Below are positions 20,206 through 43,614 of a stretch of 64,000 nucleotides of DNA, one piece after another (position 1 is the stretch's first letter; each line of letters starts with the position of its first letter). The position numbers and the translations under genes were made by a program. The notes beneath the pieces were generated by a model. That model searched no databases and was not told the origin of the DNA. It worked only from the letters and a program-made list of their open reading frames with translations. Origin of the DNA: Ignavibacteriales bacterium (GTDB lineage: Bacteria > Bacteroidota > Ignavibacteria > UBA10030); contig JAPLFQ010000009.1 in assembly GCA_026390595.1 (NCBI GenBank), positions 1 through 64,000 of the forward strand. The letters are read 5' to 3'.

Positions 20206-20239
20206 AAACGGTCTCCCATTTCCAGGCAACAACAGGCGC

Positions 20240-27929: not shown

Positions 27930-29879
27930 TCAGAATGGAGTACTGTCGGTTCTGAATGGCGCAGCCGGGAGTCCTTCGACATTGTAGAGACCAGCACCTG
28001 AAGGATTATCCGCCCAGGCATATCGGACCGCAACAGGATTGGAAACATCCTCGCTCCAAACAACCACCGTGTTACCCTTGATGGTCGCGTGCGCCCAAAC
28101 GAACCGTTTGTCCGCTCCCGCGATGGCGAAGCCGTCAAGATCCTTTCCTTTGGCGACCAATCCGCTTCCTGTGTTCGTGAACGAGAGGATGATCTTGTTC
28201 CCTTCCGTCCTCATGGACGTATACACAGGCCCGGAAGAAACAACCGTCTCATCAGCATATGCCATCTTCGCCGCGGCAAGTGTCAACCGTTTGCCGACAT
28301 CTTTCTTGTTCAGGGGATGAATGTCGTTCCATTCTCCAAGATCGATCGTGACGACGACACCGGTGTTCGGCAGCGAGGACGCATCCATCTGTGCTTCCCT
28401 CAGCAGCGCCCAGTTGCTTTCTGATGGCTGACTCTTCGGCTCCATGAAATTCGGAAGTTGAACGATCAGGAACGGAAAATCCCCTTCGTTCCATTGTGTT
28501 CGCCAATCACGAATCAGAGCAGGAAGCAGCGCGCAGTACTCGGCAGGCCTTTCGGCATTCGACTCCCCCTGGTACCATGCCGCTCCTTTGATGGCATAGT
28601 TCAGGAGAGGCGACAGCATGGCGTTGTACAAGCCGAGCGGCTTCCAACGGACAAATGTCTGACCCGCCAACGGATCCATCGCAGCCCCGAGCCGGTACTT
28701 CCACTCGCCTTTTAGGTCGATCGTTTGTCCGGCACAGACGATCTCGTACGGCTTGTCGGGGACAAACCCTCCCTTGCCGATGTTGCTGATGACCCGAACG
28801 ACAATCGTGTTCCGTCCTTTTTTTAACACGGTGGACGGGAGGTCGTACCACCGCGGTGGGTACTGATAGCTCGTCGTGCCCACGAATACACCGTTGACAA
28901 AGACGGAGTCCGCATCCACAAGCCGTCCCAGATTCAGTGTCCCCGGCCTGCCGGTCATGGATTCAGGAATATCAAAATCCCTCCGAAACCAGACAACGCC
29001 GTTGACCGGACCGAGTGTGGTTCCAGCCCAGTAGCCCGGCACATGCATCTGCGGCCAGCCGTCGGTGCTCACGGCCGGACTGAACCACGGCCTCTGAGGA
29101 TCCTTATAGCCCTCGTCCTTTTGTTTCAGCAGCTCATACCAGGCATCGATTCTGGCCTTGTCCTGACTTTCGATCTGACGAATCAGGTCCGCGTTTTTGA
29201 ACCGTTGAGCCTCCTGAAAGTGCTTTGGGAACTGCCTCAATGCTTCCTCGCTCATCCACGACTCAGCCGGTGAACCGCCAAGGCTGGTGTTGATGAGGCC
29301 GACAGGAACATGATATTTCGCGTAAAGCTCCGCGCCAAAGAAATACGCGACCGCAGAGAAGCTCAGAACCGACGTCGGATTCGGACTCTCCCACATTCCG
29401 CCGCTGAGATCAGTTTGCGGAGCGTTGAAATTGTACTTCTGCGGGACTGCGAAGTACCTGATGTACGTGTTGCTCGCTTCTGCAACGTCCTGCTCATAGA
29501 GCGGGCGCACGCGGCGCATGGGCAGTTCCATGTTCGATTGACCGGAACAGACCCAGACGTCACCAATCAGGATATTGTTTATGGTGATTGAATTGCTGGC
29601 GTCTATTGTCATCGTACAAGGTCCGCCCGCTTTCAATCCCGAGAGCTGGACGGCCCATTCCCCCATCGTGTCCGCGGTTGCGGAATAGGTCGATCCGAGG
29701 AATTTGACCGTGACCTTCTCGCCTCGCGCCGCCCATCCCCACACCTTGACCCGGGCATCCCGCTGTAAGACCATGCCGTCACTGATGAGACGCGGCAGCT
29801 TTACCTGGGCGACCATGGACAGCGACAAGAAACACAGGAAGAGCGTAATGAGAAATGCGATTTTCGTCTTCCGGATCAT
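27930..29879 (-). CDS. Sialate O-acetylesterase-type (SASA) carbohydrate esterase
   Basis: This 649-residue protein has a signal peptide (1-24) and an SASA/DUF303 esterase fold. The nucleophile Ser lies in VWVCSGQSNMELPMRR, with further family motifs YFFGAELYAKYHVPVGLINTS, GAAWYQGESNA and the late NDIHPLNKKDVGKRL, whose His completes the catalytic site. A galactose-binding-like jelly roll is inserted in the middle (about 300-400, VWFRRDFDIPESM). In plant-polysaccharide loci such proteins act as acetyl-xylan esterases; activity on sialic acid is unlikely here. Its start codon overlaps the MFS stop by four bases, so translation is coupled. It is the last gene of the GH43-to-esterase operon. Confidence 0.88.
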   Translation of the reverse strand: MIRKTKIAFLITLFLCFLSLSMVAQVKLPRLISDGMVLQRDARVKVWGWAARGEKVTVKFLGSTYSATADTMGEWAVQLSGLKAGGPCTMTIDASNSITINNILIGDVWVCSGQSNMELPMRRVRPLYEQDVAEASNTYIRYFAVPQKYNFNAPQTDLSGGMWESPNPTSVLSFSAVAYFFGAELYAKYHVPVGLINTSLGGSPAESWMSEEALRQFPKHFQEAQRFKNADLIRQIESQDKARIDAWYELLKQKDEGYKDPQRPWFSPAVSTDGWPQMHVPGYWAGTTLGPVNGVVWFRRDFDIPESMTGRPGTLNLGRLVDADSVFVNGVFVGTTSYQYPPRWYDLPSTVLKKGRNTIVVRVISNIGKGGFVPDKPYEIVCAGQTIDLKGEWKYRLGAAMDPLAGQTFVRWKPLGLYNAMLSPLLNYAIKGAAWYQGESNAERPAEYCALLPALIRDWRTQWNEGDFPFLIVQLPNFMEPKSQPSESNWALLREAQMDASSLPNTGVVVTIDLGEWNDIHPLNKKDVGKRLTLAAAKMAYADETVVSSGPVYTSMRTEGNKIILSFTNTGSGLVAKGKDLDGFAIAGADKRFVWAHATIKGNTVVVWSEDVSNPVAVRYAWADNPSGAGLYNVEGLPAAPFRTDSTPF

Positions 29880-31177
29880 TTGATCCCCATCTCGAAGGTG
29901 TCGATTTTCGGGACCAACAGATGGAAGATGAACAACGTGATCACGTATGCTGATCCAGCCATGATGAAGAGCGTGGTATAACTTCCGGTTGCCTGCAGGA
30001 TATAGCCGGTCCCCGAAGCGATCAATATTCCGCCGATCGAACCGGCCATGCCGCCGATCCCGGTAACAGACCCGACCGCTTTCTTGGGGAACATATCAGA
30101 AACTGTCGTGAAAAGGTTTGCAGACCAACCCTGATGCGCTGCTGTAGCCAGACCGAGCAAAATCACTGCCCACCATAACGATGCAATGGGAACGAACACG
30201 ATGGGCACAATCAACAATGCACAGACCAGCATTGCGGTCTTCCTTCCCCTGTTGATTCCCCAGCCAGCTCTGATAAAGAATCCCGGGAGCCACCCCCCGG
30301 CAATGCCGCCGACGCTCGTCATGGTATAGATAACGATCAATGGCAGGCCGACATGAGCCAGGTCGAGACCATATTTTTCGTTGAGGAATTTCGGCAGCCA
30401 ATATATATAGAACCACCAGAACGGATCCGTCAGCAATTTGCCGACGATGAAAGACCAGGTTTGTCGGTATCTGAGCAAACCCAACCAGGGAATTTTTTCC
30501 GGCGCGCTCTCAGCCGCATCGCTGTGAATGATTTCCAATTCCGCCCTTGAGACTTTTTTGTGCCTCTCCGGTATCTCATAGAGCCAAAGCCAGAAAACCA
30601 GCCAGATGAACCCGAGCAGACCGGTGAAGATGAACGCCGCCTGCCAACCCCAGGTCAGAGCGATCCAGGGGACGACAAGAGGAACCAGCAGTGCGCCAAT
30701 GTTCGCCCCGGAGTTAAACAAAGATATCGCAAGAGCTCTCTCCTTCTTCGGAAACCATTCAGCGATGGCTTTATTCGACGAGGGAAAATTCCCGGACTCG
30801 CCCAGGCCAAGAGCGAACCTCGCAACGCCAAAGCCGAAAACAGACCTGGCGAGAGCATGTCCCATCGCTGCGATGCTCCAAACAACAATGGAGATTGAGA
30901 ATCCGGTTTTCGTTCCCACCCTGTCAACAAACCTGCCGACAAAAACCATAGCTATGGCATAGGCGGCCATGAACGCTGCGACAATATTGCCATAATCAAT
31001 CTGGTCCCAGCCGATTTCCTTCTGCAGGACAGGAGCAAGAAGTCCCAGAACCGATCGGTCTACATAGTTGATGGTTGTAGCAAAGAAGAGCAGTGCACAA
31101 ATAGCCCAGCGATAGTGGGTCACCGGCGCTGCTTGACCCGCAGCATTGTTCATGTCAGTGCTTTCAGAGTTTGTCAT
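29876..31177 (-). CDS. MFS transporter, hexuronate/anion:cation symporter (ACS) type
   Basis: A 433-residue inner-membrane permease with about twelve hydrophobic helices. The sequence NYVDRSVLGLLAPVLQKEIGW in the first helix region, LGLGESGNFPSSNKAIAEWFP, and the central loop rich in charged residues match ExuT/GudP-like members of the ACS family that import hexuronates and aldarates with protons. In this locus the expected cargo is glucuronate or 4-O-methylglucuronate released by GH115, or unsaturated uronates from GH105. Start ATG 31177 follows GAAGGAACT. It is 65 bases after GH105 and overlaps the SASA gene. It is the only sugar importer in the window. Confidence 0.88.
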   Translation of the reverse strand: MTNSESTDMNNAAGQAAPVTHYRWAICALLFFATTINYVDRSVLGLLAPVLQKEIGWDQIDYGNIVAAFMAAYAIAMVFVGRFVDRVGTKTGFSISIVVWSIAAMGHALARSVFGFGVARFALGLGESGNFPSSNKAIAEWFPKKERALAISLFNSGANIGALLVPLVVPWIALTWGWQAAFIFTGLLGFIWLVFWLWLYEIPERHKKVSRAELEIIHSDAAESAPEKIPWLGLLRYRQTWSFIVGKLLTDPFWWFYIYWLPKFLNEKYGLDLAHVGLPLIVIYTMTSVGGIAGGWLPGFFIRAGWGINRGRKTAMLVCALLIVPIVFVPIASLWWAVILLGLATAAHQGWSANLFTTVSDMFPKKAVGSVTGIGGMAGSIGGILIASGTGYILQATGSYTTLFIMAGSAYVITLFIFHLLVPKIDTFEMGIK

Positions 31178-31242
31178 AGTTCCTTCAAGTGTTTGCTCAG
31201 GGAGTCAGGAAAACGTTGAGAATCTCAATGGCAGCGGCCGGG

Positions 31243-32472
31243 TCACTTGGCGAGCTGCAGGATTTCTGTGCCGGCCAGTATCACAGCACCAATCCCATGG
31301 ATGTCGTTCAGAGGCGTCGGACGGCAATAGTAGGCGACGAGATCGTCACTGACTGATGTTCCTGCGCAGACTCCTTCAATCTGGCCATCGGACCGGATTT
31401 TCGACGTCACACCTTCCCATCCGCGTCGGGCAATCGAGGCGTAGCGCTGCTCGATGTACCCCTTGTTGACGGATCGTGCGATTGCATACGCAAACATCGC
31501 GCTGCAGGACGTCTCCACATACGAGTCGGGCTTGTCGAGCAACTGATGCCACAGACCCTCTGCCCCCTGGTAGCGGGCGACTCCAAGGATGTGTCGTTTC
31601 AGAATCTCCAACAACTGCGGGCGGCTGGGGTGATTCGTCGGCAGGCGGTCCAGCAAATCAACCTGCGCCATCAGGGCCCAACCATTGGCACGGCCCCAGA
31701 AGGCAACACCCGGCCGTTGCACATCTGAATACCAGCAGTGATACATCAATCCGGTATTCACATCAAACACGTACTTTTGGAAATTGATGACCTGCAGCGC
31801 AGCGTCGTCAAAATACTTCCTGTCTCCTGTCAGAGCACCCATCCGGGAGAGGAAGGAGATGCTCATGTAGAGATCATCAGACCAGAGAGTCCATTTGTGC
31901 GGAAACGACCGGGCAAACGTGCCGTCGTTCAGCCGGGTCTGCCGTTTCAGCATATGTGCTGCGGCTTGATCGATGTATGATCGATACCGATCCTGCCTAT
32001 CGCTGCGGTACACTTCGATGACACTGGCACCCATTGCGCCGCAGTCGTCGAGCTCTTCCATGATGAAATGTTGTCCAAAGGGATAATTCCATTTCCCTTC
32101 CCCCTTGTACCGATCCTTGAAGCAACCGACGTTGTCGAAACTGAATGCCACGTTTCTCACCGCGAAATCGGCAAAGGAAGCCTGGTGAAGTGTTTCACCC
32201 AATCTGATCAACGAAATGTTCAGCACTCCGTTCCAGTAGCGCCAGTCTGCGTAAGGGCTTACAAGCCGCAGTTGTGCATCCTCCGGCGCCTCGGTTGCGT
32301 ACTTGATGTGTCGCCCGCTCTTCTGATCGACGAAACTGAACACTGAATCTTTAACGATACCGTTAGCCACAGCGCGGAGAGTACGCTCGATATCCGTTGC
32401 GCTTTGGGCAAAGGAATCGCAGGGACATCGCACCAGAGCATAGAACACGATGAGAACCGCTACTCGTAACAC
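31243..32472 (-). CDS. GH105/GH88-type unsaturated uronyl hydrolase (YteR-like)
   Basis: This (alpha/alpha)6-barrel enzyme hydrolyses unsaturated or saturated uronyl residues from oligosaccharide ends. Motifs are HKWTLWSDDLYMSISFL, containing the catalytic Asp, FWGRANGWALMAQVDLLDRLP and SYVETSCSAMFAYAIARSV. I prefer the GTG at 32472, which follows AAAGGCGGAAA and opens a signal peptide (VLRVAVLIVFYALV...SFAQ), giving 409 residues. The longer frame starts at 32532 inside a palindromic repeat and is unlikely. The protein lies between the URO-D-like and MFS genes. Its presence points to uronate-bearing oligomers from lyases as well as glucuronoxylan. Confidence 0.88.
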   Translation of the reverse strand: MLRVAVLIVFYALVRCPCDSFAQSATDIERTLRAVANGIVKDSVFSFVDQKSGRHIKYATEAPEDAQLRLVSPYADWRYWNGVLNISLIRLGETLHQASFADFAVRNVAFSFDNVGCFKDRYKGEGKWNYPFGQHFIMEELDDCGAMGASVIEVYRSDRQDRYRSYIDQAAAHMLKRQTRLNDGTFARSFPHKWTLWSDDLYMSISFLSRMGALTGDRKYFDDAALQVINFQKYVFDVNTGLMYHCWYSDVQRPGVAFWGRANGWALMAQVDLLDRLPTNHPSRPQLLEILKRHILGVARYQGAEGLWHQLLDKPDSYVETSCSAMFAYAIARSVNKGYIEQRYASIARRGWEGVTSKIRSDGQIEGVCAGTSVSDDLVAYYCRPTPLNDIHGIGAVILAGTEILQLAK

Positions 32473-32515
32473 TTTCCGCCTTTCAAGCTGTCCGACCCGG
32501 TTGTCCGACAGTTGG

Positions 32516-32550
32516 CCTGCCCGCCGAACCATGCTTCTTGGGGCAGGCGG
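32516..32550. repeat. REP-like palindromic element (copy A)
   Basis: CCTGCCCGCCGAA and GGGGCAGGCGG are inverted arms of a hairpin located between the URO-D-like and GH105 genes. Read on the minus strand it has the form CGCCTGCCNC-loop-TCGGCGGGCAGG, the same arms and polarity as copy B at 36216-36246. It overlaps the upstream extension of the GH105 frame. Confidence 0.6.
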
Positions 32551-32565
32551 ATTGTCGAAGCGCAG

Positions 32566-33606
32566 CTATGGGACAGGTACTTGTCTCTTTGCCGCGTCAA
32601 TAAAGGCCTTGATATTCTCAGACTTCACCCCCGGCGGCATGCCTCCACCGCAAGACAGAATGACTCTGGACCGATCATGAAGAGATTCGATCAACTCAGT
32701 TGTCACTCTGGTCACGTCCTCCGGAGTACCGCTCGCCAGCACATCACGTGGAGGGATGTTTCCAAGAAGCGTGACTTTGTTTCCAGTCAATAATTTCAAT
32801 TCATTCAGCGTAATGTCAAATCCCATGTTGAAAAGATTGACTCCCATCTCTGGCAGGAACGGAGCCGACACTTTGCAATGAGCGTCATTGTGGAGGAACC
32901 TGACGGAGACATCGGTGCCGTACAACTCTTTGAAGTACGGGAGTCCGAACGAACGGAACTCTGGTTCGCCGAGAAATCCGATGATATCATCGAGCAGCAG
33001 AATGCCATCGATGGTGGGGAATGTTTCCCTCTGCAGCGACAGCCATTCTTTGAGAAACGTTGTGATCTTTGTTATCAACCGTTCTGCTGTTGCAGGAGCT
33101 ATCATCAGAAGCGTCAGGAATTCCGACGTACCCATGAGATAGCTGGCGATATTCAGTGGTCCCCGGGCCACGGCGAACCGGATCTTGTGGCCCGCATCCT
33201 CGATTCGAGGTTGCGCCAGTTTCAGACGATTCAACATGAAGGGCAAGAGACCATCGACCTTTGGATTCGGCGATGGAAGCGAGTCGATTTCATTCACTGT
33301 AAGTGAAAGCTTGTGCGCATGGGGAAATTCGTTCACCGGAAATGAGCATCGCGCTCCGAACGCGGACGGTTCGGTGCACATACCAAATTCAGACCAGAAA
33401 CCGGGGAGGAACATGACATCAGGGAAATCATTGATAGCTTTGAGGTTGGCGTTGATCCAGATGTCATCGTTCGAAAAATAGTCGAGGATGGTAACCCCGC
33501 ACCAGTTTGGCACCCACGGACAATCGATGATGAAGCCGATTGGGAGAGACGATGATTGTTCACCTTGTATGGTGCTTTTCAGTAACACCCATTGTGCATC
33601 TGTCAT
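32566..33606 (-). CDS. Uroporphyrinogen decarboxylase (URO-D)-fold protein, methyltransferase-like
   Basis: The 346-residue cytoplasmic protein belongs to the URO-D superfamily, which includes haem-pathway HemE and the corrinoid/coenzyme M methyltransferases MtaA, MtbA and CmuA. It lacks the N-terminal arginine motif of HemE and resembles the methyltransferase branch near the end: LLGNIPPRDVLASGTPEDV and SCGGGMPPGVKSENIKA. The usual zinc motif HxC is replaced by H239-N-D241, with H243-C244 close by and C319 present, so a modified metal site is likely. It is cotranscribed with an SDR, GH105 and a hexuronate permease. A role in processing a methylated or otherwise modified sugar is inference; the function is unknown. 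Confidence 0.8.
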   Translation of the reverse strand: MTDAQWVLLKSTIQGEQSSSLPIGFIIDCPWVPNWCGVTILDYFSNDDIWINANLKAINDFPDVMFLPGFWSEFGMCTEPSAFGARCSFPVNEFPHAHKLSLTVNEIDSLPSPNPKVDGLLPFMLNRLKLAQPRIEDAGHKIRFAVARGPLNIASYLMGTSEFLTLLMIAPATAERLITKITTFLKEWLSLQRETFPTIDGILLLDDIIGFLGEPEFRSFGLPYFKELYGTDVSVRFLHNDAHCKVSAPFLPEMGVNLFNMGFDITLNELKLLTGNKVTLLGNIPPRDVLASGTPEDVTRVTTELIESLHDRSRVILSCGGGMPPGVKSENIKAFIDAAKRQVPVP

Positions 33607-33666
33607 ACTCTCGAACCTCTCTGTTTTGAATGATTGCGCCGTACCCCCTGACGGGAGCGTAGGACA

Positions 33667-34455
33667 TCAAAATCCAATGGAATTGCCTCCATCCACAGGG
33701 AGTACGACTCCTGTGACAAATTTCGACTGTTCTGACGCCAGGAACAGCGCCGCATGTGCGACGTCTGCCGGCTCCCCCAATCGCCCCATTGGAGTGCGGG
33801 CAAGAACTTTGTGCTTCCGCTCCGGATCGCTCTCGAGTGCTTCTGAGGACATTCTCGTTTTGATGAATCCTGGAGCAATGCAGTTGACGCGGATACCGAA
33901 CGGGGCACACTCCACCGCGAGCGCGCGCGTCATACCTTCGACAGCCGATTTCGATGCAGTATAGCCGATCACTTTTGGGATGCCATACCGGGAGGCCATC
34001 GAACTGATCATGATCACGCTCCCGGACCGCCGCACGACCATGGATCTCAATATGTCCCGCGTCAGGGCAAAGACTGCGGTTTGATTTGTTTGGATGATTC
34101 CCTGAAAATCCTTGTTGGTAACGTGAAGAACATCTTTCTTCATGTTGATGCCCGCGTTGTTGACGAGGACATCTACCTCGCCGACGGCACCCTTGATCAA
34201 TGCCACAAGCTCCGGCAGCCGGTCAATCTCGTCCACATCAAATGCAATGCAATGGGCCTTCTTTCCGAGTAGCTTACGGGCTTCCTTGAGTCTCGCGGCA
34301 TCTCTGCCGACGATAACGACGTGTGAAGAATTGGCGATAAACTCGCTCGCGATGGCGAAACCGAGTCCACTTCCGCCGCCCGTTACAACGACGGTCTTGT
34401 TCCGCAAGTCACGGTACAAAGCTCCTGACTGATTCATCATCCCTCCGATGTTCAT
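33667..34455 (-). CDS. SDR-family oxidoreductase (FabG/KduD/fructuronate reductase-like)
   Basis: This is a classical short-chain dehydrogenase of 262 residues using NAD(P)H. It has the Rossmann motif VVVTGGGSGLGFAIA, NNAGINMKKD, the catalytic Ser in MISSMASRYG, Tyr and Lys in YTASKSAVEG, and the C-terminal VVLPVDGGNSIGF. Context (hexuronate permease, GH115, GH105) suggests reduction of fructuronate, a 5-keto-gluconate or a deoxy-ketouronate, but the family is too broad for a firm substrate. ATG 34455 overlaps the stop of the GH43 gene (ATGA), indicating translational coupling; downstream ATGs at 34440 and 34437 behind GGAGGG are alternatives. Confidence 0.85.
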   Translation of the reverse strand: MNIGGMMNQSGALYRDLRNKTVVVTGGGSGLGFAIASEFIANSSHVVIVGRDAARLKEARKLLGKKAHCIAFDVDEIDRLPELVALIKGAVGEVDVLVNNAGINMKKDVLHVTNKDFQGIIQTNQTAVFALTRDILRSMVVRRSGSVIMISSMASRYGIPKVIGYTASKSAVEGMTRALAVECAPFGIRVNCIAPGFIKTRMSSEALESDPERKHKVLARTPMGRLGEPADVAHAALFLASEQSKFVTGVVLPVDGGNSIGF

Positions 34456-36155
34456 TTCGATCTGTGTATCTCATCATCGCCCGCATATTCGAACCAATCA
34501 AAGTACGCTTTGCTTTTCGACGGCGTTCCGAGTGACGTCGCGTACAAAGCGTACATACATCCAACAAATCCGCCAGCGACTCGTGTGCTCAGAAAACGGG
34601 CATCAACCCCATCTTTCAGAAGAATCCATTTGTCTTTCTGCGAGCTGAACAGAAACGAGTAGGAAGAACCGTGCGCCTCAATTTTCAACCCTACAGCCTC
34701 GTCAGCATGGACCCGATCAAGTTCTTGCGAGACAAGAAGCTGCATTTCTCGCGCCTGGCTCCCTGCCGTGCCGGACGAGAACAGTTGAATGACCGATTTA
34801 CCTTCCTGGACAGACCTGCAGAGGAAATAGTAGTGCGATTCGTTTTGGAAGACGAGCAAGCCCGCTTTTTCGCTCTCCGCCTTTGGAGAGAATTGAAGGC
34901 TCACACTTGCCGAGCCAGTAGCGTGCTGCTGACGATGGCCAAGGAAACTCGGATTGACGGCATCTGCGCACGTCTCTTGCCTCACACACATCGCCAGCCA
35001 GCCTTTGTGTTCCTTGAGGTCGTACCAAGGTTCCCGCGGCGTCCTCAGAAATGCCCATTCAGGATTCAAATCGCCAGAGTTGAAATCGTCTCTGATCACG
35101 AAGTTGCCCCCTTGCGGAACGACACCGCTGGGGCTTGGTGATTCGAAGGGGACAGGATAGTGATACTGAACCAGTTCATAACCGGGATTGATCAGAGGCC
35201 ATTCACCACTCCAATCGACAGGTGCGAGAAACGTTTCCCTCCCCGTGTTGAAATAATTCTGGTCGAACGGACGGTACGGGCGGCAACCCAGGAACACCGC
35301 CCACCAGGATCCATCCCCGGTCTGAACAAAATCTGCGTGACCGGTTGACGTGATGGGATATTCTCTCTTCGGATCAAGATTCCGTTGCGTTAAGATAGGA
35401 TTCTTTTCGAACGGAACGTACGGACCGTCGACGTTCTTGCTCTTGAAAACGACCTCGGAATGCTGCTCGGCTGTCCCGCCTTCCGCCGCGATCAGGTAGT
35501 AGTTCCCGTTTTTCTTGATGATATGCGGAGCCTCGATCCAGACCGGCTTCTTTGTGATGTCGACCCCTCCGTTCACGAGGATCGTTTCTTTTCCGGATAC
35601 TTTGAGCGTCTTGATGTCGAGTGCAACGATACGAATCGTTCTGTGTCCATCGTACAGCGATTTGTTGTCGGGAGGAATGCTGTTATAAATGACGTACGCG
35701 TTTCCATCGTCATCGAAGAATGGAGACGGGTCGATGCCGTTGATCTCCGGCAGCCAGACGGGATTCGTCCAGGGACCGGCTGGTGATTTTGCCGTGACGA
35801 TGAAATTTCCGCCACGGTCAACCTGCGTGCAAATCACGTAGAACAACCCTTTGTTGTACCGGATTGTTGGCGCAAAAAGCCCGCGGGAGACTCCCTGTCC
35901 ATCCAGATTCAGCTGCTCGGGTCGATCGAGCACGTGACCGATCAATTTCCAGTTGACCAGATCGCGGCTTTGGTACACCGGTATGCCCGGAAAGTATGCA
36001 AACGTCGAGGTCACCAGGTAGTAGTCTTTTCCCACCCTGCAAATGCTCGGATCTGGATAGAACCCTGCTAATATTGGGTTGGCGAATTGACGTTCCTGCG
36101 CATGGGAAACCGCAAGGATGGTCAGAAGAACCAAGAGTGTCAGGAGTCTTTTCAA
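34452..36155 (-). CDS. GH43 beta-xylosidase with C-terminal beta-sandwich
   Basis: This 567-residue enzyme is a GH43 xylosidase/arabinofuranosidase of the type with a concanavalin-like C-terminal domain. The signal peptide is residues 1-19 (ending VSHAQ). Catalytic residues are the base Asp in GFYPDPSICRVG, the modulating Asp in NGIDPSPFFDDDG and the acid Glu in VWIEAPHIIKKNG. The C-terminal domain begins near residue 350 (FVIRDDFNSGDLNPEWAFLR). It is the first gene of the operon running to the SASA esterase. A LacI-type operator-like site lies about 110 bases upstream. No sorting domain, so the periplasm is likely. Confidence 0.92.
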   Translation of the reverse strand: MKRLLTLLVLLTILAVSHAQERQFANPILAGFYPDPSICRVGKDYYLVTSTFAYFPGIPVYQSRDLVNWKLIGHVLDRPEQLNLDGQGVSRGLFAPTIRYNKGLFYVICTQVDRGGNFIVTAKSPAGPWTNPVWLPEINGIDPSPFFDDDGNAYVIYNSIPPDNKSLYDGHRTIRIVALDIKTLKVSGKETILVNGGVDITKKPVWIEAPHIIKKNGNYYLIAAEGGTAEQHSEVVFKSKNVDGPYVPFEKNPILTQRNLDPKREYPITSTGHADFVQTGDGSWWAVFLGCRPYRPFDQNYFNTGRETFLAPVDWSGEWPLINPGYELVQYHYPVPFESPSPSGVVPQGGNFVIRDDFNSGDLNPEWAFLRTPREPWYDLKEHKGWLAMCVRQETCADAVNPSFLGHRQQHATGSASVSLQFSPKAESEKAGLLVFQNESHYYFLCRSVQEGKSVIQLFSSGTAGSQAREMQLLVSQELDRVHADEAVGLKIEAHGSSYSFLFSSQKDKWILLKDGVDARFLSTRVAGGFVGCMYALYATSLGTPSKSKAYFDWFEYAGDDEIHRSK

Positions 36156-36440: not shown

Positions 36441-37568
36441 CTAGTTCACTTTCTGCGCGAATGTCGTCCCGCTATACTGTTCCACCTCCACGCCGGTCAC
36501 CTTGCCAACCTCGTTCTTCTTGAACCGCACCATCAGGTATATTCCTTTGACGAAGAACTTCTCTTTGTTCTCAGCAAGAAGCGGGATTCTAGTGTTCCCG
36601 GGAACGACCATCACAAGACATCCGTCATCATTGGTGATCTCAATCGAAACCTGCGGTGCTACCTGATACTTCCCGATGTACTGATCGAGGATCTCCCGGG
36701 AGAGAGACAACATCGGTCGTGCGAATACCCACTGCAGGCCCTTCGTGTATCCTTCCGCTTTGCTTCCCGAGTGCCCGATTCCTTCAAGCACTTTCGTTTC
36801 CAGTTCGAGTCCCTTGTAGCTCCTCGATTTCAGCTGAGCCACGAACTTCTGAAATTCCACCACTCCATCCCCTTCAAGCCCTCCTATGCCAATAAACAGG
36901 CGGACCGGAAGCTGCGTATTCTTCGCTGCGTATTCCTTCTCAAACGAGAAGAGGACTTCGTTGTCCCATCCCACTGCAGGACTTGTCAACACATATCGGT
37001 CAAACAACGCCGTTTCCTGAAGGAGAGCGTAGAGTGTGAAAAGTCCGCCGAAGGAGCTTCCTATCAGCGTTCTACCGCTCTTGGCTGCCCGGTAGTTTTG
37101 CTCGATGTAAGGGATAAGTTCATTCTTGATGAACTTCAGGAATTTCGGAGCGCCGCCTGATGCAGATTGTTGCCTGACAACTGTTGGCGTGAGATCTCTG
37201 GCTCTCAGGCTGTCATGATTTGGATTGACCCCTCCCCATGTAATTCCCACGATGATTGCCCCCGGGATGAATCCGTCATAGTATTGCTGTCCATAGAGTG
37301 CATGGAGCAACGGAAAATCCCACTGTGCATCGAGCAGAAACATGACTGGAAAAGCCTTGCTCGTGTCCTGATAGCCTCTCGGCAGATTCACGCAGAGATC
37401 ATACTCCTGCCCTACAATCGCAGAGGTCAGATGCTCCAAACGACTTCCGCGGATTTCAACCTGCGGCGGAGCCGAGCGCTCCGGTTGGGCCTGTGCGGGA
37501 TCGGTGCAGAACAGGATGCAGAGAAATCCCACCGTAATGGTCAGGCGTGGCACTCGTTTGATACTCAT
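36441..37568 (-). CDS. Secreted alpha/beta-hydrolase esterase (esterase D/Fes type)
   Basis: The 375-residue protein from ATG 37568 (preceded by GGAGAAAACCT) has a signal peptide (1-28, ending AQAQ) and an esterase D/enterochelin-esterase-like alpha/beta-hydrolase domain. It shows FPVMFLLDAQWDF, the nucleophile elbow LIGSSFGGLF, and the late His in GIGHSG. About 100 C-terminal residues form an extra beta-rich segment (VEIEQYSGTTF-like ending). Members of this group in xylan loci cleave feruloyl or acetyl esters; which one is not decided by motif. It follows GH115 by 19 bases. The open frame upstream of 37568 overlaps GH115 and is not used. Confidence 0.82.
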   Translation of the reverse strand: MSIKRVPRLTITVGFLCILFCTDPAQAQPERSAPPQVEIRGSRLEHLTSAIVGQEYDLCVNLPRGYQDTSKAFPVMFLLDAQWDFPLLHALYGQQYYDGFIPGAIIVGITWGGVNPNHDSLRARDLTPTVVRQQSASGGAPKFLKFIKNELIPYIEQNYRAAKSGRTLIGSSFGGLFTLYALLQETALFDRYVLTSPAVGWDNEVLFSFEKEYAAKNTQLPVRLFIGIGGLEGDGVVEFQKFVAQLKSRSYKGLELETKVLEGIGHSGSKAEGYTKGLQWVFARPMLSLSREILDQYIGKYQVAPQVSIEITNDDGCLVMVVPGNTRIPLLAENKEKFFVKGIYLMVRFKKNEVGKVTGVEVEQYSGTTFAQKVN

Positions 37569-37587
37569 AGGTTTTCTCCGGAATACG

Positions 37588-40566
37588 TCATTTCGTCTGG
37601 GGAGCATTCGCAGGACCGCGGTAACTCTCCGGCGGACCGAGATAAGCCGGCCTGACATTCTTTGTTTCGACGACGAGTTTTTGGAGCACGACTCCCGGGT
37701 CGACCATCCAGTACTTCAGCAGGTGCCTGCCGGGCTCTGTGATCGTATGGGTCGATTTCAGAATGCTGACGTTATTCCTGACAGATTCTTCCCAATCCTG
37801 AAATGTCTTGCCCGCATGCATATTCACAACTTGCGGCGGTTGATCATCAAAGGAGACCGCATAGCGCAACCCTGCATCGTTATGGAAGTTCAGCGTCGGC
37901 GACAGGTATGCCGACACCGTGACGTTGCCTTTGTCGAACAGATACACAGGGTATTCAAGATGCGGTGCATCGGCGCCCGGTGTTTGGCTGGCTGCCGTCA
38001 CCGGCACAGGGGCCATCGCCGAAAGCGTGCGCCCCAGGTCCGGAATTTTCTGCCAGCCAAGGGTGGAGGACTCTGCAGCGCGGGAAAAATGTTCAGCCTC
38101 GATTGATACACAACCGTTGCTCTCCACGAATCCATTTACGCTGCCGGGATCGGGCGAAGAGGGATTGTTGATAATCGCCTGAATTGTCACCGTTTCTCTT
38201 TTCGGCCCCGAAATGACGATCGGAATCCGTGACATTCCCGCTGGAGCCTTTTTCCAATCTACACTCAACCACACACGATCGCCAACGGTGCAAGTTCCTT
38301 TCGCAGCATTGACCTTCATCCAGGGTTGGTTGGTCTTGAGCGTGTAGCTGAACGGAGTTGTTCCGCGGTTGAAGATATCGATGAAGTACCTCTGCTGATT
38401 GTACCGATCGAATTCAGGCAGAACCAACTCCGAGCTGTCGGCGGGCCATGATCGCTCAGATCCCTCGACGGCAACACCCAGCCCCGCCAAAACCGGAATC
38501 GAAATGGTCGTGACAGCAGGCATCATATTCGAGTCCGGCTGCTGCCAGTAGGTGTACCCGATGTGGGTTTGGTCCATCATGTGATTCCACTTCCCCTTTG
38601 CCATCGTTCTGTTGTAGTAGAGGGAGATTGCGGAATCTTTCAGGTAGAGGATACGCGCCTCTGCGGCAAGGGCGTTGGTCGCTGCTCGTCCCTGATTTGC
38701 ATACAGATGATTCTTGCCAACGGTGACGTACAGTTCATTGAGATTGGAACAGGCAAGAACCGGGTGGAGCACGAGTTGATAGAATGCATCCCTGAGTTCT
38801 TTGGGCAACGCGTCGGAAATCCGCTGCGCACGCTTCGCCAGGTTCTTGTAGTCGGCGACAACGGTCTCCGCCTCGCGATAATTGACAAGGCTGTACGTAT
38901 TTGGAGTTATCAGTTCCGGCTTCCTGCGTGAGTTGTACTGCGTGTACTTAGTGAGGATGTCGGCAATGTCAGTCGCGTATTTCACGCCGAACTGTTGCTC
39001 CCCCCACTGTCTCGTGTACTCAGGCAATCGCTCTGCCGGCCACGCGTTCGGATTCCAGGAGTAGTCGAGGAAGAACTGCGTAGGAAATTCCATCGGCTTG
39101 ATATCGCCAACGTTGACAATCCAGATCCGATCGACGCCGTAACTGTACGCCAGATGCATTTGCTCCCACACTCTCGAGATCTGGTTTGTATTCAACCATT
39201 TGTAGTTGCGCGGTCCGCCGACATAGTCGTAGTGATAGTACATTCCATAGCCTCCGGCGCGGGGTGCGTCCGTAGTTTTTGGGAGCTTCCGGATGTTTCC
39301 CCAATTGTCGTCGCACAGAAGCAGCGTGACATCGTCGGGAACCCGCATTCCCTTGTCATAGTACTCCTGCACCTCTTTGTAGAGAGCCCATATCTGAGGA
39401 ATCGACGACAGCCCTTTCTCGGTGACCTCACCGAGTATCTGCCGCTGATCTTTGACGATTCGCTCCAAAAGGGAGATATTGGACTCCTGAGACATCGGCT
39501 CATCACCATCCCCCCGCATTCCGATGGTCACGATGCTTTCGTAGTTCTTCATGCGCCTGATCCCCTGCTGCCAGAAGCTCCTCAGGACGGAATCATTCTT
39601 CTCATAGTTCCAGGCCCCTTTTCCGTATCGCCGCCACTCATCGTGGGCGCGCATCATCGGCTCGTGATGCGAGGTGCCTATCACGACGCCGTATTCGTCT
39701 GCCAGCTTTGGATTAAGCGAATCATCGTCATAAAACGCCCTCCCCCACATCGCCGGCCAGAGGTAATTGCCTTTCATCCGGAGGATGAGTTCAAAGACCT
39801 TTTCATAGAAAGCGTGATTGAACCCTCCGAACTTTTCGGTTACCCACCCGGACAACGCCGGGGCCTCATCGTTGATGAAAATCCCGCGGTATTTCACCGC
39901 GGGGGACCCGAGTGTGCGGCGCCCCGGGAGAACATAGAGGTTCGGCTGACGTTTGGCCGGCACGTCAGCCCACCAGTACCAGGGAGAAACCCCTATCTTC
40001 GCACAAAGGTCGTAAACCCCATAGACTGTGCCCCTTTTGTCGCTTCCTGCGATTATGAGGGCACGCATGATGCCGGGGAACGGATGTTCGACAACCTGTA
40101 TCAAAGAGGCTTCCCACATGCCGACGATGCCATTAACGTCGATCTTTCCTTCCCGGACCAATTCGTCGATAAGCGGATTCGTTCCGAGTGTTCCTACAAT
40201 CACAATTTCTCCTGATTTCGGGAGTGTATCGAGATGGATCGGGGATTCAAACCGGGCAACGCTCCGAATGTCCGACTGAAGATCTCTCACGACTCGCAGC
40301 ACAGCGGGAAAGTCACGGGAACTGACAAGCAATGAAGCGGATCGGCCTGAAGCTGCAAGAGCAAAAGCTCCGGCCGCTGTCTTCGTCGATATGTAGGATT
40401 CGTCCTTCCGGGATTGCTTCAGCTGCTCCCCCGGAAAAAGCACCGAGGGAAGAAGAAGCAAAATTGACAGAAGTGCTATCGGCCACTGCAAGCTGGAGCC
40501 GATACGGAATGCGCTTCTTCCGATGGAATGGCTGGAGCAGGAGTTGATCAGGCGGCGCGAATTCAT
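37588..40566 (-). CDS. GH115 xylan alpha-1,2-glucuronidase (copy 2)
   Basis: This second GH115 has 992 residues from ATG 40566, which follows CGAGGCTTGG; an ATG at 40647 overlaps the GH8 gene and lacks a ribosome site. A hydrophobic segment WPIALLSILLLLPSVLF near residue 30 is the signal. Family motifs are YRGIFINDEAPALSGW, NYLWPAMWGRAFYDDD, GTSHHEPMMRAHDEWRR, WALYKEVQEYYDKGM and MMDQTHIGYTYW. A beta-sandwich insertion (about 740-830) and the C-terminal beta domain with CVSIEAEHFSRA follow. It is about 125 residues longer than copy 1, mainly from the extra sandwich. It lies between GH8 and the esterase. Confidence 0.93.
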   Translation of the reverse strand: MNSRRLINSCSSHSIGRSAFRIGSSLQWPIALLSILLLLPSVLFPGEQLKQSRKDESYISTKTAAGAFALAASGRSASLLVSSRDFPAVLRVVRDLQSDIRSVARFESPIHLDTLPKSGEIVIVGTLGTNPLIDELVREGKIDVNGIVGMWEASLIQVVEHPFPGIMRALIIAGSDKRGTVYGVYDLCAKIGVSPWYWWADVPAKRQPNLYVLPGRRTLGSPAVKYRGIFINDEAPALSGWVTEKFGGFNHAFYEKVFELILRMKGNYLWPAMWGRAFYDDDSLNPKLADEYGVVIGTSHHEPMMRAHDEWRRYGKGAWNYEKNDSVLRSFWQQGIRRMKNYESIVTIGMRGDGDEPMSQESNISLLERIVKDQRQILGEVTEKGLSSIPQIWALYKEVQEYYDKGMRVPDDVTLLLCDDNWGNIRKLPKTTDAPRAGGYGMYYHYDYVGGPRNYKWLNTNQISRVWEQMHLAYSYGVDRIWIVNVGDIKPMEFPTQFFLDYSWNPNAWPAERLPEYTRQWGEQQFGVKYATDIADILTKYTQYNSRRKPELITPNTYSLVNYREAETVVADYKNLAKRAQRISDALPKELRDAFYQLVLHPVLACSNLNELYVTVGKNHLYANQGRAATNALAAEARILYLKDSAISLYYNRTMAKGKWNHMMDQTHIGYTYWQQPDSNMMPAVTTISIPVLAGLGVAVEGSERSWPADSSELVLPEFDRYNQQRYFIDIFNRGTTPFSYTLKTNQPWMKVNAAKGTCTVGDRVWLSVDWKKAPAGMSRIPIVISGPKRETVTIQAIINNPSSPDPGSVNGFVESNGCVSIEAEHFSRAAESSTLGWQKIPDLGRTLSAMAPVPVTAASQTPGADAPHLEYPVYLFDKGNVTVSAYLSPTLNFHNDAGLRYAVSFDDQPPQVVNMHAGKTFQDWEESVRNNVSILKSTHTITEPGRHLLKYWMVDPGVVLQKLVVETKNVRPAYLGPPESYRGPANAPQTK

Positions 40567-40625
40567 CCAAGCCTCGGTTGTTTGGATCTGCTTACCGTAG
40601 AATTGTTCGGCGGTCGAACGGCGGT

Positions 40626-41924
40626 TCAGTTTGGCATACCGGGACATTCAACCGGTGGTTTTCCCGTGGGGTCGTAGATCTTAAAACTACCATTTACCTG
40701 GAGCATAGCCATCATGTAGAGCAGGCCGTCATAGTATCTGTAGAGACCATTTGGAACGGATGTGTTCCAGAGTTCTGCCACGAATTCTCTCCGATTCGCG
40801 TTCGTCGAAGCGAGACAGGCAACGGCATTCATGGCCACCAATCCGGCACTGTGATCATCTGCCAGCTTTTTGCCGTCAAGTGTAAAGAGGTTTCCGTATA
40901 CTCCTATTCCCTGGGAGTGGAAAAAATCGAGAAGCCGGTTCGACTGCGGTACCGCCCAGGGATCCCGGGCAAACCAAGCATAGTCGACTGCGACATTCAT
41001 CGCAACCCGCCATGCATCGAAACGGAAATCATTATTTCCTCCCTCCCGCCAATTCAACGGCGACCCGTCGAAGTGAGAATAGTCGGGCATCAGACCGGTG
41101 GTTGGATGGGCCGCTTTCCTGAAGAACCCGCGGCTCGTCGCGGCAGCCTCACACCAGAATGAATTATTCTTGTCGGCCCAACGCGCCCAGAGTTCGTAGT
41201 AGTGGGGAAGATGGTACGAAGGATCTGTGAACCACGACGCGTCGACAGTCGGAACGAAAACGACCTGGCGTTCCTTCTTGCTAAACATAGGCGTAATACC
41301 CCCATCGCTCCAGCGTTTTCCATCTTTGCTGAGCATGGCATCCAGAATTGCCTGTGCCTCAACCTTGTAGTTGAATATTCCATCACCGTTCCCCCATCGT
41401 GCCGATGCAAAGAAGAGACATGTCACAAACCACTCTTCGCCATCGGAGGCGGCTGTCGAATCGATGATTGTCCCGTCCGTGTTGCAGTGCCATGCAAAGT
41501 ACGTCTTGCGGGGCTCCTTCTTGTGCTGCATGAACGTTTTTGCCCACTTCCAGAGCCGATCGAATTCATTCTTTTTGTCGAGTTGGACCGCGATCATCAT
41601 CCCATACGACATGCCCTCGGTGCGGACATCATTGTGCGCGATGTCCTCGATGTATGCCATTTCGGGTTCCACCGGATAATACACCCGCTCGGTCGAGTCG
41701 TTTCCATGGAACAATTGGACAAACGCACTGTCAACCCGCGCCCTGGCCCGAACTTCGCTTATTCCCAACAGATCCCTAAAGAGGTTTTGATAAATTCCGG
41801 TATAGTACGAACCGCGCTCTTTCCCCGTTCGCGTGGTGTCGGACAGGGACGGCAATATCCATGCATGACTATTCTGCCAGCCACACATGAGCAGAATCAG
41901 AGGCAGAAAGCTGCACCTTTTCAT
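40626..41924 (-). CDS. GH8 reducing-end xylose-releasing exo-oligoxylanase
   Basis: This (alpha/alpha)6-barrel enzyme of the Rex type removes xylose from the reducing end of xylo-oligosaccharides. Starting at ATG 41924 behind GAGGAGGGAG, it has 432 residues and a signal peptide (1-21). The acid Glu is E103 in NDVRTEGMSYGMM, followed by YFAWHCNTDGT and the base-bearing DFRFDAWRVAMNVAVDYAW; ADDHSAGLVAMNAVA is also typical. The upstream in-frame extension to 41975 is not needed. It is the first gene of the GH8-GH115-esterase group and is divergent from lacI, with an operator-like site 57-72 bases upstream. Confidence 0.92.
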   Translation of the reverse strand: MKRCSFLPLILLMCGWQNSHAWILPSLSDTTRTGKERGSYYTGIYQNLFRDLLGISEVRARARVDSAFVQLFHGNDSTERVYYPVEPEMAYIEDIAHNDVRTEGMSYGMMIAVQLDKKNEFDRLWKWAKTFMQHKKEPRKTYFAWHCNTDGTIIDSTAASDGEEWFVTCLFFASARWGNGDGIFNYKVEAQAILDAMLSKDGKRWSDGGITPMFSKKERQVVFVPTVDASWFTDPSYHLPHYYELWARWADKNNSFWCEAAATSRGFFRKAAHPTTGLMPDYSHFDGSPLNWREGGNNDFRFDAWRVAMNVAVDYAWFARDPWAVPQSNRLLDFFHSQGIGVYGNLFTLDGKKLADDHSAGLVAMNAVACLASTNANRREFVAELWNTSVPNGLYRYYDGLLYMMAMLQVNGSFKIYDPTGKPPVECPGMPN

Positions 41925-41980
41925 AGAATACTCCCTCCTCAGGGGGCCGAAGCAGCCCTCAGGTTCTTGGTTCAATATTT

Positions 41981-41996
41981 ATTGAACCGTTTCAAT
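41981..41996. promoter_or_regulatory. LacI-family operator-like site upstream of GH8
   Basis: ATTGAACCGTTTCAAT contains inverted halves TTGAA and TTCAA around a CCGT centre. It shares AACCGTTTCAAT with the lacI-side site. It is placed 57-72 bases before the GH8 start codon, where it could cover the promoter. Confidence 0.65.
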
Positions 41997-42532: not shown

Positions 42533-42550
42533 AATTAAACCGTTTCAATT
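42533..42550. promoter_or_regulatory. LacI-family operator-like site upstream of lacI
   Basis: AATTAAACCGTTTCAATT is an 18-base imperfect palindrome with a central CpG (14 of 18 positions symmetric), the usual form of LacI-family operators. It lies downstream of the predicted -10 box and 32 bases before the regulator's start codon. Confidence 0.7.
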
Positions 42551-42582: not shown

Positions 42583-43614
42583 ATGAAGAGAATTACGATA
42601 GAAGATGTTGCAAAGAAGGCTGGAGTCTCAAAGGGAACCGTTTCTGCTGTCATCAATGCCAAAGACTCGGTGAAGCCTAGGACGAGGGATCAGATCCTTG
42701 AAGTGATGAGGGAACTGAATTTTCGCCCGAAAGGCGTCGCCAGAAATCTCAAGAATGGAGGTCAGGACAAGAGCATCGGACTGATCATCAAGGATTTGGA
42801 GTATCCATTCTATACTGCGATCGCCACTGGAGCGAAAGAGTACGCAGACAGCAAGGGATATTCGATTGTCGTCACGAGTTCCGCGGATAACCACGAGTAT
42901 GAAGAGAGACTCACGCATCTCTTTTCCGCAAAAGACATCAAGGGAACGATCATCGCTCCCACGCTGGAAGGAACAGCAGAGATCGAACATCTCTTCAAAC
43001 TGAAGAGAATCAATTACCCGTTTGTGCTTCTGGAGGATGTCAAAGGGATTCAGGCGAACGTCGTTGCGATCAACAACCTGCGAGCAATCAAGAAGGCCGT
43101 CAAGTACCTGATCGACAGTGGCCACACGCACATAGTCCACTTCGCAGGACCTCCACACTCTTCGCACACTATGGAGAGGATTGAGGGATTCCGACATGCC
43201 TTCAGCGAAAGTACACTCGTGTTCCACAAGGACATGATCGTACCAATCGGATCGCACTACGACGAGAGTTTCCGCAAGACAAAAGAATATTTTACAGGCA
43301 GAAAGAAAGAGGAATACCCGACCGCTATCGTTTGCTTCAATGATCAACAGGCCCTCGCTGTGATGATGGCTCTCAAAGAATTGTCCATTCGAGTCCCGGA
43401 TACCATTTCCATTATCGGTAACGATGATATCTATTATGCACGGATCTATCCGGTGCCATTGACGACGATACGCGCTCCACAGTACGAAATCGGCAAGATG
43501 GCGGCGGAGATCTTGATCCGGAACATCGAATCGGCAACGATTCTCCCGACAGAGCGCGTCGTTCTCGAGACAGAGTTCATCGTCAGGGAATCTTCCAGGA
43601 TTCTGAAACACTGA
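42583..43614 (+). CDS. LacI-family transcriptional regulator of the xylan locus
   Basis: The 343-residue DNA-binding protein begins with a LacI helix-turn-helix, ITIEDVAKKAGVSKGTVSAVI, and hinge helix FRPKGVARNLKNG. A periplasmic-binding-protein-like effector domain follows (about 60-340) with FVLLEDVKG, HIVHFAGPPHSSHTMERIEGF and SIIGNDDIYYARI. The ligand is probably a sugar, perhaps xylose- or uronate-related, but cannot be read from sequence. Three sites with AACCGTTTCA in the locus suggest it controls itself, the GH8 group and the GH43-MFS operon. A strong terminator follows the gene. Confidence 0.9.
   Translation: MKRITIEDVAKKAGVSKGTVSAVINAKDSVKPRTRDQILEVMRELNFRPKGVARNLKNGGQDKSIGLIIKDLEYPFYTAIATGAKEYADSKGYSIVVTSSADNHEYEERLTHLFSAKDIKGTIIAPTLEGTAEIEHLFKLKRINYPFVLLEDVKGIQANVVAINNLRAIKKAVKYLIDSGHTHIVHFAGPPHSSHTMERIEGFRHAFSESTLVFHKDMIVPIGSHYDESFRKTKEYFTGRKKEEYPTAIVCFNDQQALAVMMALKELSIRVPDTISIIGNDDIYYARIYPVPLTTIRAPQYEIGKMAAEILIRNIESATILPTERVVLETEFIVRESSRILKH

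Follow-up and report, generated by a model that had tools for sequence, protein, structure and literature searches.

What becomes of the methyl group of 4-O-methylglucuronate (MeGlcA) when xylan is degraded by anaerobes? MeGlcA is one of the main side groups of xylans, including those of hardwood, and its release is the work of well-known enzymes; to our knowledge the fate of its methyl group in anaerobes has not been worked out. The question is raised by a stretch of 64,000 nucleotides (the window) on contig JAPLFQ010000009.1 of an Ignavibacteriales bacterium (assembly GCA_026390595.1), where an operon with genes for xylan-degrading enzymes includes a gene for a protein of the URO-D superfamily, here called UROD1. 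The first-pass annotation of this DNA had suggested that the protein might remove the 4-O-methyl group of imported MeGlcA. That suggestion is now strongly supported at the level of sequence comparison: UROD1 follows the alpha-glucuronidases GH115 and GH67 across genomes, its relatives lie in operons with corrinoid and methyl acceptor genes, and a predicted operator of its operon is also found at uxuA. We consider it probable that, in a corrinoid-dependent O-demethylase for MeGlcA, UROD1 serves as the substrate-specific methyltransferase (MT I). Gene content, co-occurrence, synteny, operator sharing, conserved residues and the predicted fold were observed or computed; from these we infer the substrate, the metal, the corrinoid partner, the acceptor and the direction of methyl transfer.

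Co-occurrence of UROD1 with alpha-glucuronidases

The class sample comprised 197 genomes, that of the window included. E-value cut-offs were fixed at the time of each search (1e-60 for UROD1; 1e-30 for GH115, UxuA and UxaC; 1e-20 for GH67 and GH10; 1e-40 for the corrinoid protein) and the genome lists used for co-occurrence were copied by hand from the outputs. UROD1 was present in 20 genomes, with 15 matches of at least 570 bits and five of 305-315 bits. Co-occurrence with GH115 across genomes had been named in the first-pass annotation as a way to check its proposal, and the result was clear: all 17 genomes possessing GH115 were among the 20 with UROD1. GH67 was found in 16 genomes, 15 of which had UROD1. 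Taken together, GH115 or GH67 occurred in 18/20 UROD1 genomes and in 1/177 others (Fisher p 2.6e-22, kinship ignored). The class genomes are not independent and these association statistics are not tree-based. When the sample was collapsed to 105 genera, ten had both UROD1 and one of the glucuronidases, one had UROD1 only and one GH67 only (p 4e-12). Because of this genus-level count and the patchy presence of UROD1 within families f1, f2, f3 and f5, mere descent is disfavoured as the cause.

Two controls were informative. Among the 29 genomes with a GH10 xylanase, GH115 or GH67 was present in 18/18 with UROD1 and in 1/11 without (p 5.5e-7); among the 47 genomes with a UxaC family member the corresponding figures were 18/20 and 1/27 (p 7.4e-10), the UxaC hits being in part partial or of a weaker tier (287 bits in the genome of the window). 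UROD1 therefore appears to follow the release of methylglucuronate and not the use of xylan or uronates in general. UxuA could not serve as a contrast because it tracks UROD1 too (16/20 UROD1 genomes vs 2/177 others). UxaC was found in all 20 UROD1 genomes, in one of them merely as a fragment at a contig end.

The association was also seen at close range. UROD1 lay at most 25 kb from GH115 or GH67 in 11 of the 20 genomes and at most 3 kb from a corrinoid gene in 13. All 20 UROD1 genomes, and 42/177 others, contained a relative of the corrinoid protein. One such relative, at locus L147 (G035:C2:88001-108000; G, C and L denote genomes, contigs and loci), was very like the UROD1-linked type (393 bits) and came from a genome without a UROD1 match.

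Gene neighbourhoods of UROD1 relatives

A scan for relatives, with one genome per species, gave 222 confirmed members, of which the best 80 (58-86% identity) were used. Flanks of up to 10 kb per side were of unequal length, so that a separate count was also made for the 34 loci whose two flanks were each 5 kb or longer. Genes were called by a simple longest open reading frame script and named by hidden Markov models built from clusters of the same loci, with score thresholds set by us; some loci are duplicated under different identifiers (e.g. L031/L114 and L030/L132), also among the 100 alignment rows discussed below. According to the database records the relatives belong to Ignavibacteria, Bacteroidales, Calditrichaeota, KSB1, Fibrobacteres, Spirochaetes, Verrucomicrobia and others.

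In many loci the genes directly upstream of UROD1 encoded a corrinoid protein (PF02310 and PF02607), a homocysteine S-methyltransferase (PF02574) and a stand-alone MetH activation domain (PF02965). Within 10 kb of UROD1 these were found in 26, 23 and 20 of the 80 loci, respectively, and at least one of the three in 29; in the 34 long-flank loci the numbers were 17, 14, 12 and 18. GH115 was a neighbour in 21/80 loci, GH67 in 7/80 and either in 27/80 (13, 4 and 17 of the long-flank loci). UxuA and a second URO-D protein, UROD2, were each found in 10/80 (8 and 9 of the long-flank loci, respectively). The corrinoid, acceptor and reactivation genes often stood within xylan loci with GH115 or GH67. 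L142, where UROD1 belongs to the distant tier (34% identity), has the order GH67, an unnamed gene, GH10, GH115, GH43, UROD1, corrinoid protein, homocysteine methyltransferase. In L119, another locus of the distant tier, UROD1 is followed by genes for a corrinoid protein, a homocysteine methyltransferase, an MTHFR fusion and a pterin-binding methyltransferase.

The partner proteins retained their characteristic motifs (one protein per locus): D-x-H-D-I-G was kept in 52/52 corrinoid proteins, RxxxGY in 33/33 activation proteins, and NCG plus GGCCG in 39/44 homocysteine methyltransferases. Four of the five exceptions were from the distant tier (L119, L120, L141 and L142) and one was located at a contig end (L150).

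Predicted fold and metal motif of UROD1

UROD1 is encoded by a single uninterrupted reading frame of 346 residues and belongs to the URO-D superfamily (PF01208; 111.6 bits vs a gathering score of 23.9). Assignment to either of the better known branches was rejected, since the scores were far below the curated cut-offs for HemE (TIGR01464; 43.8 vs 302.95 bits) and for the MtaA/CmuA methyltransferases (TIGR01463; 56.7 vs 235.4 bits). An AlphaFold model based on 50 sequences had a pLDDT of 91.3 and resembled MtaA (4ay7; Z 30.6, root-mean-square deviation 2.9 A over 329 residues, 16% identity). HemE structures tied with MtaA as fold match (Z about 30.5), and the PDB entries matched by the sequence profile were HemE chains.

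The metal motif pointed out in the first-pass annotation was readily confirmed: it consists of H239, N240 and D241 plus the distal C319. H-N-D was invariant in all 100 aligned rows (95 near and 5 distant relatives), as were E73, E79, R127, R148, D206 and D207. C319 was kept in 92/95 near rows and in 0/5 distant rows. The UROD1 of Anaerophaga thermohalophila str. Valhall (L100), a cultured organism, has Val in the place of this Cys; corrinoid and activation genes, and neither GH115 nor GH67, were found around it. H239, D241 and C319 aligned with the His, Cys and Cys columns of the MtaA-like paralogue UROD2, which matches MtaA at these positions. According to passages of PMC10418091 (Kountz and Balskus), S-methyltransferases of the URO-D superfamily carry His-Cys-Cys, and O-methyltransferases have carboxylates or non-coordinating residues in the place of one Cys or of both; zinc is absent from some O-demethylases, as an excerpt of PMC13222342 has it. 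UROD1, with H-N-D throughout, differs from the His-Cys-Cys site of soluble coenzyme M and S-methyltransferases and has the carboxylate (D241) in the place where these passages of PMC10418091 lead one to expect it in an O-demethylase MT I. By this rule UROD1 therefore bears the marks of an enzyme acting on an oxygen substrate. The metal site itself is predicted, and the metal may be zinc.

UROD2 was encoded in L025, L031, L032, L034, L035, L042, L051, L061, L065 and L070 and showed H-x-C plus the distal Cys, i.e. the S-methyltransferase type, in 15/16 full-length rows. It may be a second acceptor enzyme, perhaps for a thiol methyl acceptor.

The uronate pathway and a putative common operator

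The gene directly upstream of UROD1 encodes an SDR oxidoreductase. It was 61-73% identical to the SDRs of L021, L022, L036, L046 and L071 and only 33-36% identical to the UxuA-linked SDRs of L029, L031, L032, L039, L051 and L120. With the D-mannonate oxidoreductase model PRK08277 (cut-off 281 bits) it scored 177 bits, while the UxuA-linked SDR of L031 reached 362.5. An ordinary UxuB was thus rejected and the protein placed in a separate group; yet its homologue in L071 adjoins UxuA, for which reason the window SDR is probably an alternative fructuronate/mannonate oxidoreductase. Genes for the remaining steps were found elsewhere in the genome, UxaC at C8:73980 and UxuA at C12:17459.

The operon is headed by a divergent gene for a LacI-family regulator. 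From two sites, one beside the start of the operon and the other beside that of lacI (Table 1), we derived the operator pattern TTRAAMCGKTTYAA; only the site at UxuA and those of relatives are therefore independent of its derivation. A scan of 15 genome stretches (336,825 bases) yielded one further exact copy, between UxuA and a divergent GH3 gene on C12. Five single-base shuffles gave 0.6 matches on average at no more than one mismatch. With the same tolerance the operator was found before GH115, GH8 or lacI in 8 of 12 relative loci scanned (two of these being the same contig) and was not found in L036, L038, L046 and L115. From the sites at the operon and at UxuA, UROD1 is predicted to share a regulon with mannonate dehydratase.

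The probable corrinoid partner and methyl acceptor

The first-pass annotation saw no corrinoid protein, which is true of the contig and not of the genome: PF02607 is absent from contig C9, which contains the window, and has five matches on other contigs. In the window, as in L021, L022, L036, L046 and L138, the SDR gene occupies the position directly upstream of UROD1 where other loci have the corrinoid genes. Three proteins of the genome matched the UROD1-linked corrinoid family, encoded on C4, C21 and C5. The C4 protein adjoins MtaB and is part of a methanol system. The C21 protein adjoins an activation-domain protein and a ribokinase. The third is encoded by the last gene (G000:C5:136447-137112) of a cluster with the order pterin-binding protein, PF12225 protein (which we take to be MetV-like), MTHFR, corrinoid protein; the pterin-binding protein scored 104 bits against a cut-off of 259 for the nearest NCBIfam model. 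Most UROD1-linked corrinoid proteins have an N-terminal extension, and this was present in the C21 and C5 proteins and absent from the C4 protein as well as from those of L119 and L120.

The second genome of the genus, G360, also has the C5-type cluster (L151), and its UROD1 operon (L138) has nearly the gene order of the window, lacking the esterase and containing one extra gene. In L024, UROD1 (78% identical, and near the UROD1 of the window in the leaf order of the tree, taken as order only and without branch support) is followed after about 60 bases by a gene for a homologous pterin-binding protein and then by the start of a PF12225 protein gene at the contig end. The gene orders of the C5 cluster, G360, L024 and L119 are the reason for proposing a methyl route from UROD1 to the C5 corrinoid protein and on to tetrahydrofolate, and the C5 protein most likely acts in trans with UROD1.

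A proposed pathway for MeGlcA and its alternatives

The pathway that we consider probable would run as follows. Xylanases together with GH115 or GH67 would free MeGlcA, and the MFS permease of the operon would bring it into the cell. UROD1 would bind the sugar acid, and a metal coordinated by H239, D241 and probably other carboxylates would polarise the ether oxygen at C4. The methyl group would pass to the Co(I) of the corrinoid protein, and the glucuronate left behind would be metabolised by UxaC, the SDR and UxuA in turn. The pterin-binding protein encoded beside the C5 corrinoid protein would hand the methyl group to tetrahydrofolate, to be oxidised by way of MetV/MetF; homocysteine may be an alternative acceptor. 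Other lineages have UROD1 operons that themselves contain genes for the corrinoid protein, a homocysteine S-methyltransferase and a MetH-type reactivation protein.

A number of observations weigh against this pathway. On the side of the substrate, neither GH115 nor GH67 was found in the available flanks of 53/80 loci; eight loci from Bacteroidota (L075, L076, L078, L079, L083, L084, L086 and L090) carry DUF6807 and GFO/IDH/MocA genes in place of those for xylan; G261 and G382 (2/20) have UROD1 without either glucuronidase; and G224 has GH67 without UROD1. The first two of these findings imply that part of the UROD1 family may have another substrate, and a second substrate may account for the DUF6807/GFO/IDH loci of Bacteroidota and for loci in Verrucomicrobia where UROD1 stands without visible partners. 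On the side of the mechanism, the operon of the window contains no corrinoid gene, the corrinoid family is not specific to UROD1, as the relatives in genomes devoid of UROD1 show, and the distant tier lacks the distal Cys and, in its corrinoid proteins, the N-terminal extension. The MetH activation-domain model had no match in the C5 stretch (activases of the Ram/RACE type were not searched for), and no Rfam match, hence no cobalamin riboswitch, reached the gathering score in the window or in eight loci (136,769 bases). No LacI operator was found in the C5 cluster, so that coregulation of the corrinoid partner is unsupported, and among the corrinoid proteins of the genome that of C5 is a candidate, if the most likely one.

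The lack of a corrinoid gene in the operon had suggested in the first-pass annotation that the chemistry may be new, and UROD1 could be imagined as a corrinoid-free enzyme such as a uronate decarboxylase, hydrolase or lyase of URO-D fold, all the more as HemE is as close in fold as MtaA and is the match of the sequence profile in the PDB. This inference from a missing gene loses its force in view of the relatives and of the rest of the genome. In relatives that the database records assign to several phyla, UROD1 adjoins genes for a corrinoid protein, a homocysteine methyltransferase and reactivation, all 20 UROD1 genomes possess a relative of the corrinoid protein, and the genome of the window can provide corrinoid proteins in trans, one of them encoded beside a pterin-binding methyltransferase and MetV/MetF. 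A corrinoid-free UROD1 is thus very improbable. The donor might also be a different methyl compound of the plant cell wall, e.g. methanol or methoxylated lignin aromatics, so that shared habitat would explain the placement in a xylan locus. Methoxylated aromatics are the substrates of known O-demethylases of URO-D type, as described in part of PMC13222342, and the many loci without GH115 or GH67 would be accounted for. We regard this explanation as improbable, because UROD1 is linked to alpha-glucuronidases from two Pfam families, also when the comparison is confined to genomes with a xylanase, because UxuA, the permease and the common operator indicate a uronate, and because an MtaB system for methanol, equipped with a corrinoid protein of its own, is separately encoded on C4.

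A variant of the same pathway would have UROD1 demethylate a later form of the sugar, 4-O-methyl-fructuronate or -mannonate, produced by UxaC and the SDR. It would suit the presence of UxaC in all UROD1 genomes and the six loci in which the SDR gene immediately precedes UROD1; in loci with corrinoid genes it is mostly these and not the SDR that hold this position. While we think this variant rather unlikely, the data fit either order of demethylation and isomerisation.

If demethylation of MeGlcA by UROD1 is correct, B12 chemistry would explain how a common methylated plant sugar can be used independently of oxygen, and xylan degraders of several phyla would open MeGlcA by corrinoid methyl transfer. 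Hemicellulose would then yield one-carbon units and its xylan could be used completely only with a supply of B12. Unactivated sugar methyl ethers would join the substrates of URO-D-fold corrinoid methyltransferases.

Organisation of the window

The operon consists of nine genes on the minus strand, running from 41975 to 27930 in the order GH8, GH115, esterase, GH43, SDR, URO-D, GH105, MFS and SASA, with intergenic gaps of -22, -71, 285, -4, 60, 33, 65 and -4 bases. The first-pass annotation was concerned with its 3' part (27930-36155) and described the six genes there, with their overlaps and short gaps, correctly; the two GH115 genes that it placed beside or before them are likewise present, one within the operon and one outside (Table 1). 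GH8 probably starts not at the listed TTG but at an ATG located 51 bases further downstream. The best NCBIfam match of the permease was the D-galactonate transporter TIGR00893 (249.8 bits, below the cut-off of 395). The window as a whole is a glucuronoarabinoxylan region with genes for GH43, GH10, two GH115 enzymes, an arabinofuranosidase, GH8 and esterases, and several of its proteins carry a secretion-sorting tail.

Table 1. Coordinates of the UROD1 operon and associated features in the window
Feature	Position	Strand	Evidence
Second GH115 alpha-glucuronidase, outside the operon	17602..20232	-	PF15979, 472.8 bits
SASA-type carbohydrate esterase	27930..29879	-	PF03629
MFS permease; proposed (methyl)glucuronate importer	29876..31177	-	PF07690
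GH88/GH105 glycoside hydrolase	31243..32532	-	PF07470, 258 bits
UROD1, URO-D-fold; proposed 4-O-methylglucuronate:corrinoid protein methyltransferase (MT I)	32566..33606	-	PF01208, 111.6 bits
SDR oxidoreductase (SDR-A, UROD1-associated type); proposed fructuronate/mannonate oxidoreductase	33667..34455	-	PF13561
GH43, beta-xylosidase-like	34452..36155	-	PF04616 and PF17851
Esterase	36441..37658	-	PF00756
GH115 alpha-glucuronidase	37588..40647	-	PF15979, 525.8 bits
GH8, first gene of the operon	40626..41975	-	PF01270
Putative LacI operator TTGAACCGTTTCAA, head of the operon	41982..41995		source site of the pattern
Putative LacI operator TTAAACCGTTTCAA, ahead of lacI	42535..42548		source site of the pattern
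LacI-family regulator, divergent	42583..43614	+	PF00356, PF13377

Proteins of the DUF362 type were encoded near UROD1 in L035, L042, L058, L061 and L064 and also at 25882-27840 of the window. Those of the window and of L042, the two that were scanned with Pfam, both have a secretion-sorting tail.

A possible wider class of sugar demethylases

The genome of the window (4.77 Mb) has 20 URO-D family matches above the cut-off. It is tempting to see in UROD1 a single representative of an entire class of corrinoid methyltransferases, URO-D in fold, whose substrates are O-methyl sugars; we offer this tentatively, as an idea with somewhat less than an even chance of being right. If it is true, anaerobic polysaccharide degraders would run a general B12 system for methylated sugars, passing the methyl groups to folate or methionine.

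Two further clusters of this genome were noticed. L111 (G000:C21:66001-86000) brings together genes for a corrinoid protein, a MetH-type activation protein, a ribokinase, three URO-D proteins, an alpha-rhamnosidase-like protein, GH3, GH38 and a homocysteine methyltransferase, and looks like a system for other methylated sugars. In L112 (G000:C4:26001-46000) MtaB, its own corrinoid protein and a URO-D protein are encoded beside pfkB, glycerate kinase and ROK genes.

Comparison with known systems

The known systems closest to that proposed for UROD1 are the aryl-methyl-ether O-demethylases (MtvB, OdmB, VdmB and MtoB), which, as parts of PMC13222342 and PMC10418091 describe, cleave an ether by means of an MT I of URO-D type, a corrinoid protein and a tetrahydrofolate methyltransferase. 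URO-D-fold corrinoid O-demethylases for methoxylated aromatics are thus already known from these sources. The proposed substrate of UROD1 differs, by comparison of descriptions, in being the alkyl ether of a sugar acid and not an aromatic compound, and many UROD1 loci provide a homocysteine methyltransferase and a stand-alone MetH activation domain. Among the matches listed for open-access titles and abstracts, a scope outside which many subscription papers lie, there was no corrinoid demethylation of methylglucuronate or of any sugar, and no paper in the open-access collection searched contained both 'methylglucuron' and 'corrinoid'. Since aromatic O-demethylases are known and no sugar one was among the matches listed, the substrate class of UROD1 would be new, as a prediction.

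The Type 1 mlp clusters resemble the UROD1 loci in combining URO-D methyltransferases, a corrinoid protein and an activating protein in one cluster. As portrayed in the relevant passages of PMC10418091, they contain several Mlps, almost invariably with His-Cys-Cys, together with activation of the Ram/RACE type and a link to sulfur or selenium. Compared with this description, UROD1 has H-N-D, is found in glucuronoxylan loci and is often accompanied by activation of the MetH type. With MtaA, MtbA and CmuA (TIGR01463) UROD1 has in common the fold and the position of the metal motif, but it has H-x-D in place of H-x-C and the distal Cys is not always kept.

The corrinoid, homocysteine and activation proteins encoded beside UROD1 match domains of the MetH type. 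They differ from MetH in that each has a gene of its own, and the role of the methyl-donor domain would fall to UROD1. A methyl ether of a sugar is also removed during polysaccharide use by marine Bacteroidetes, in which 6-O-methylgalactose is demethylated by a cytochrome P450 that needs oxygen and releases formaldehyde. Both systems would serve the same end, but UROD1 is proposed to act by oxygen-independent methyl transfer.

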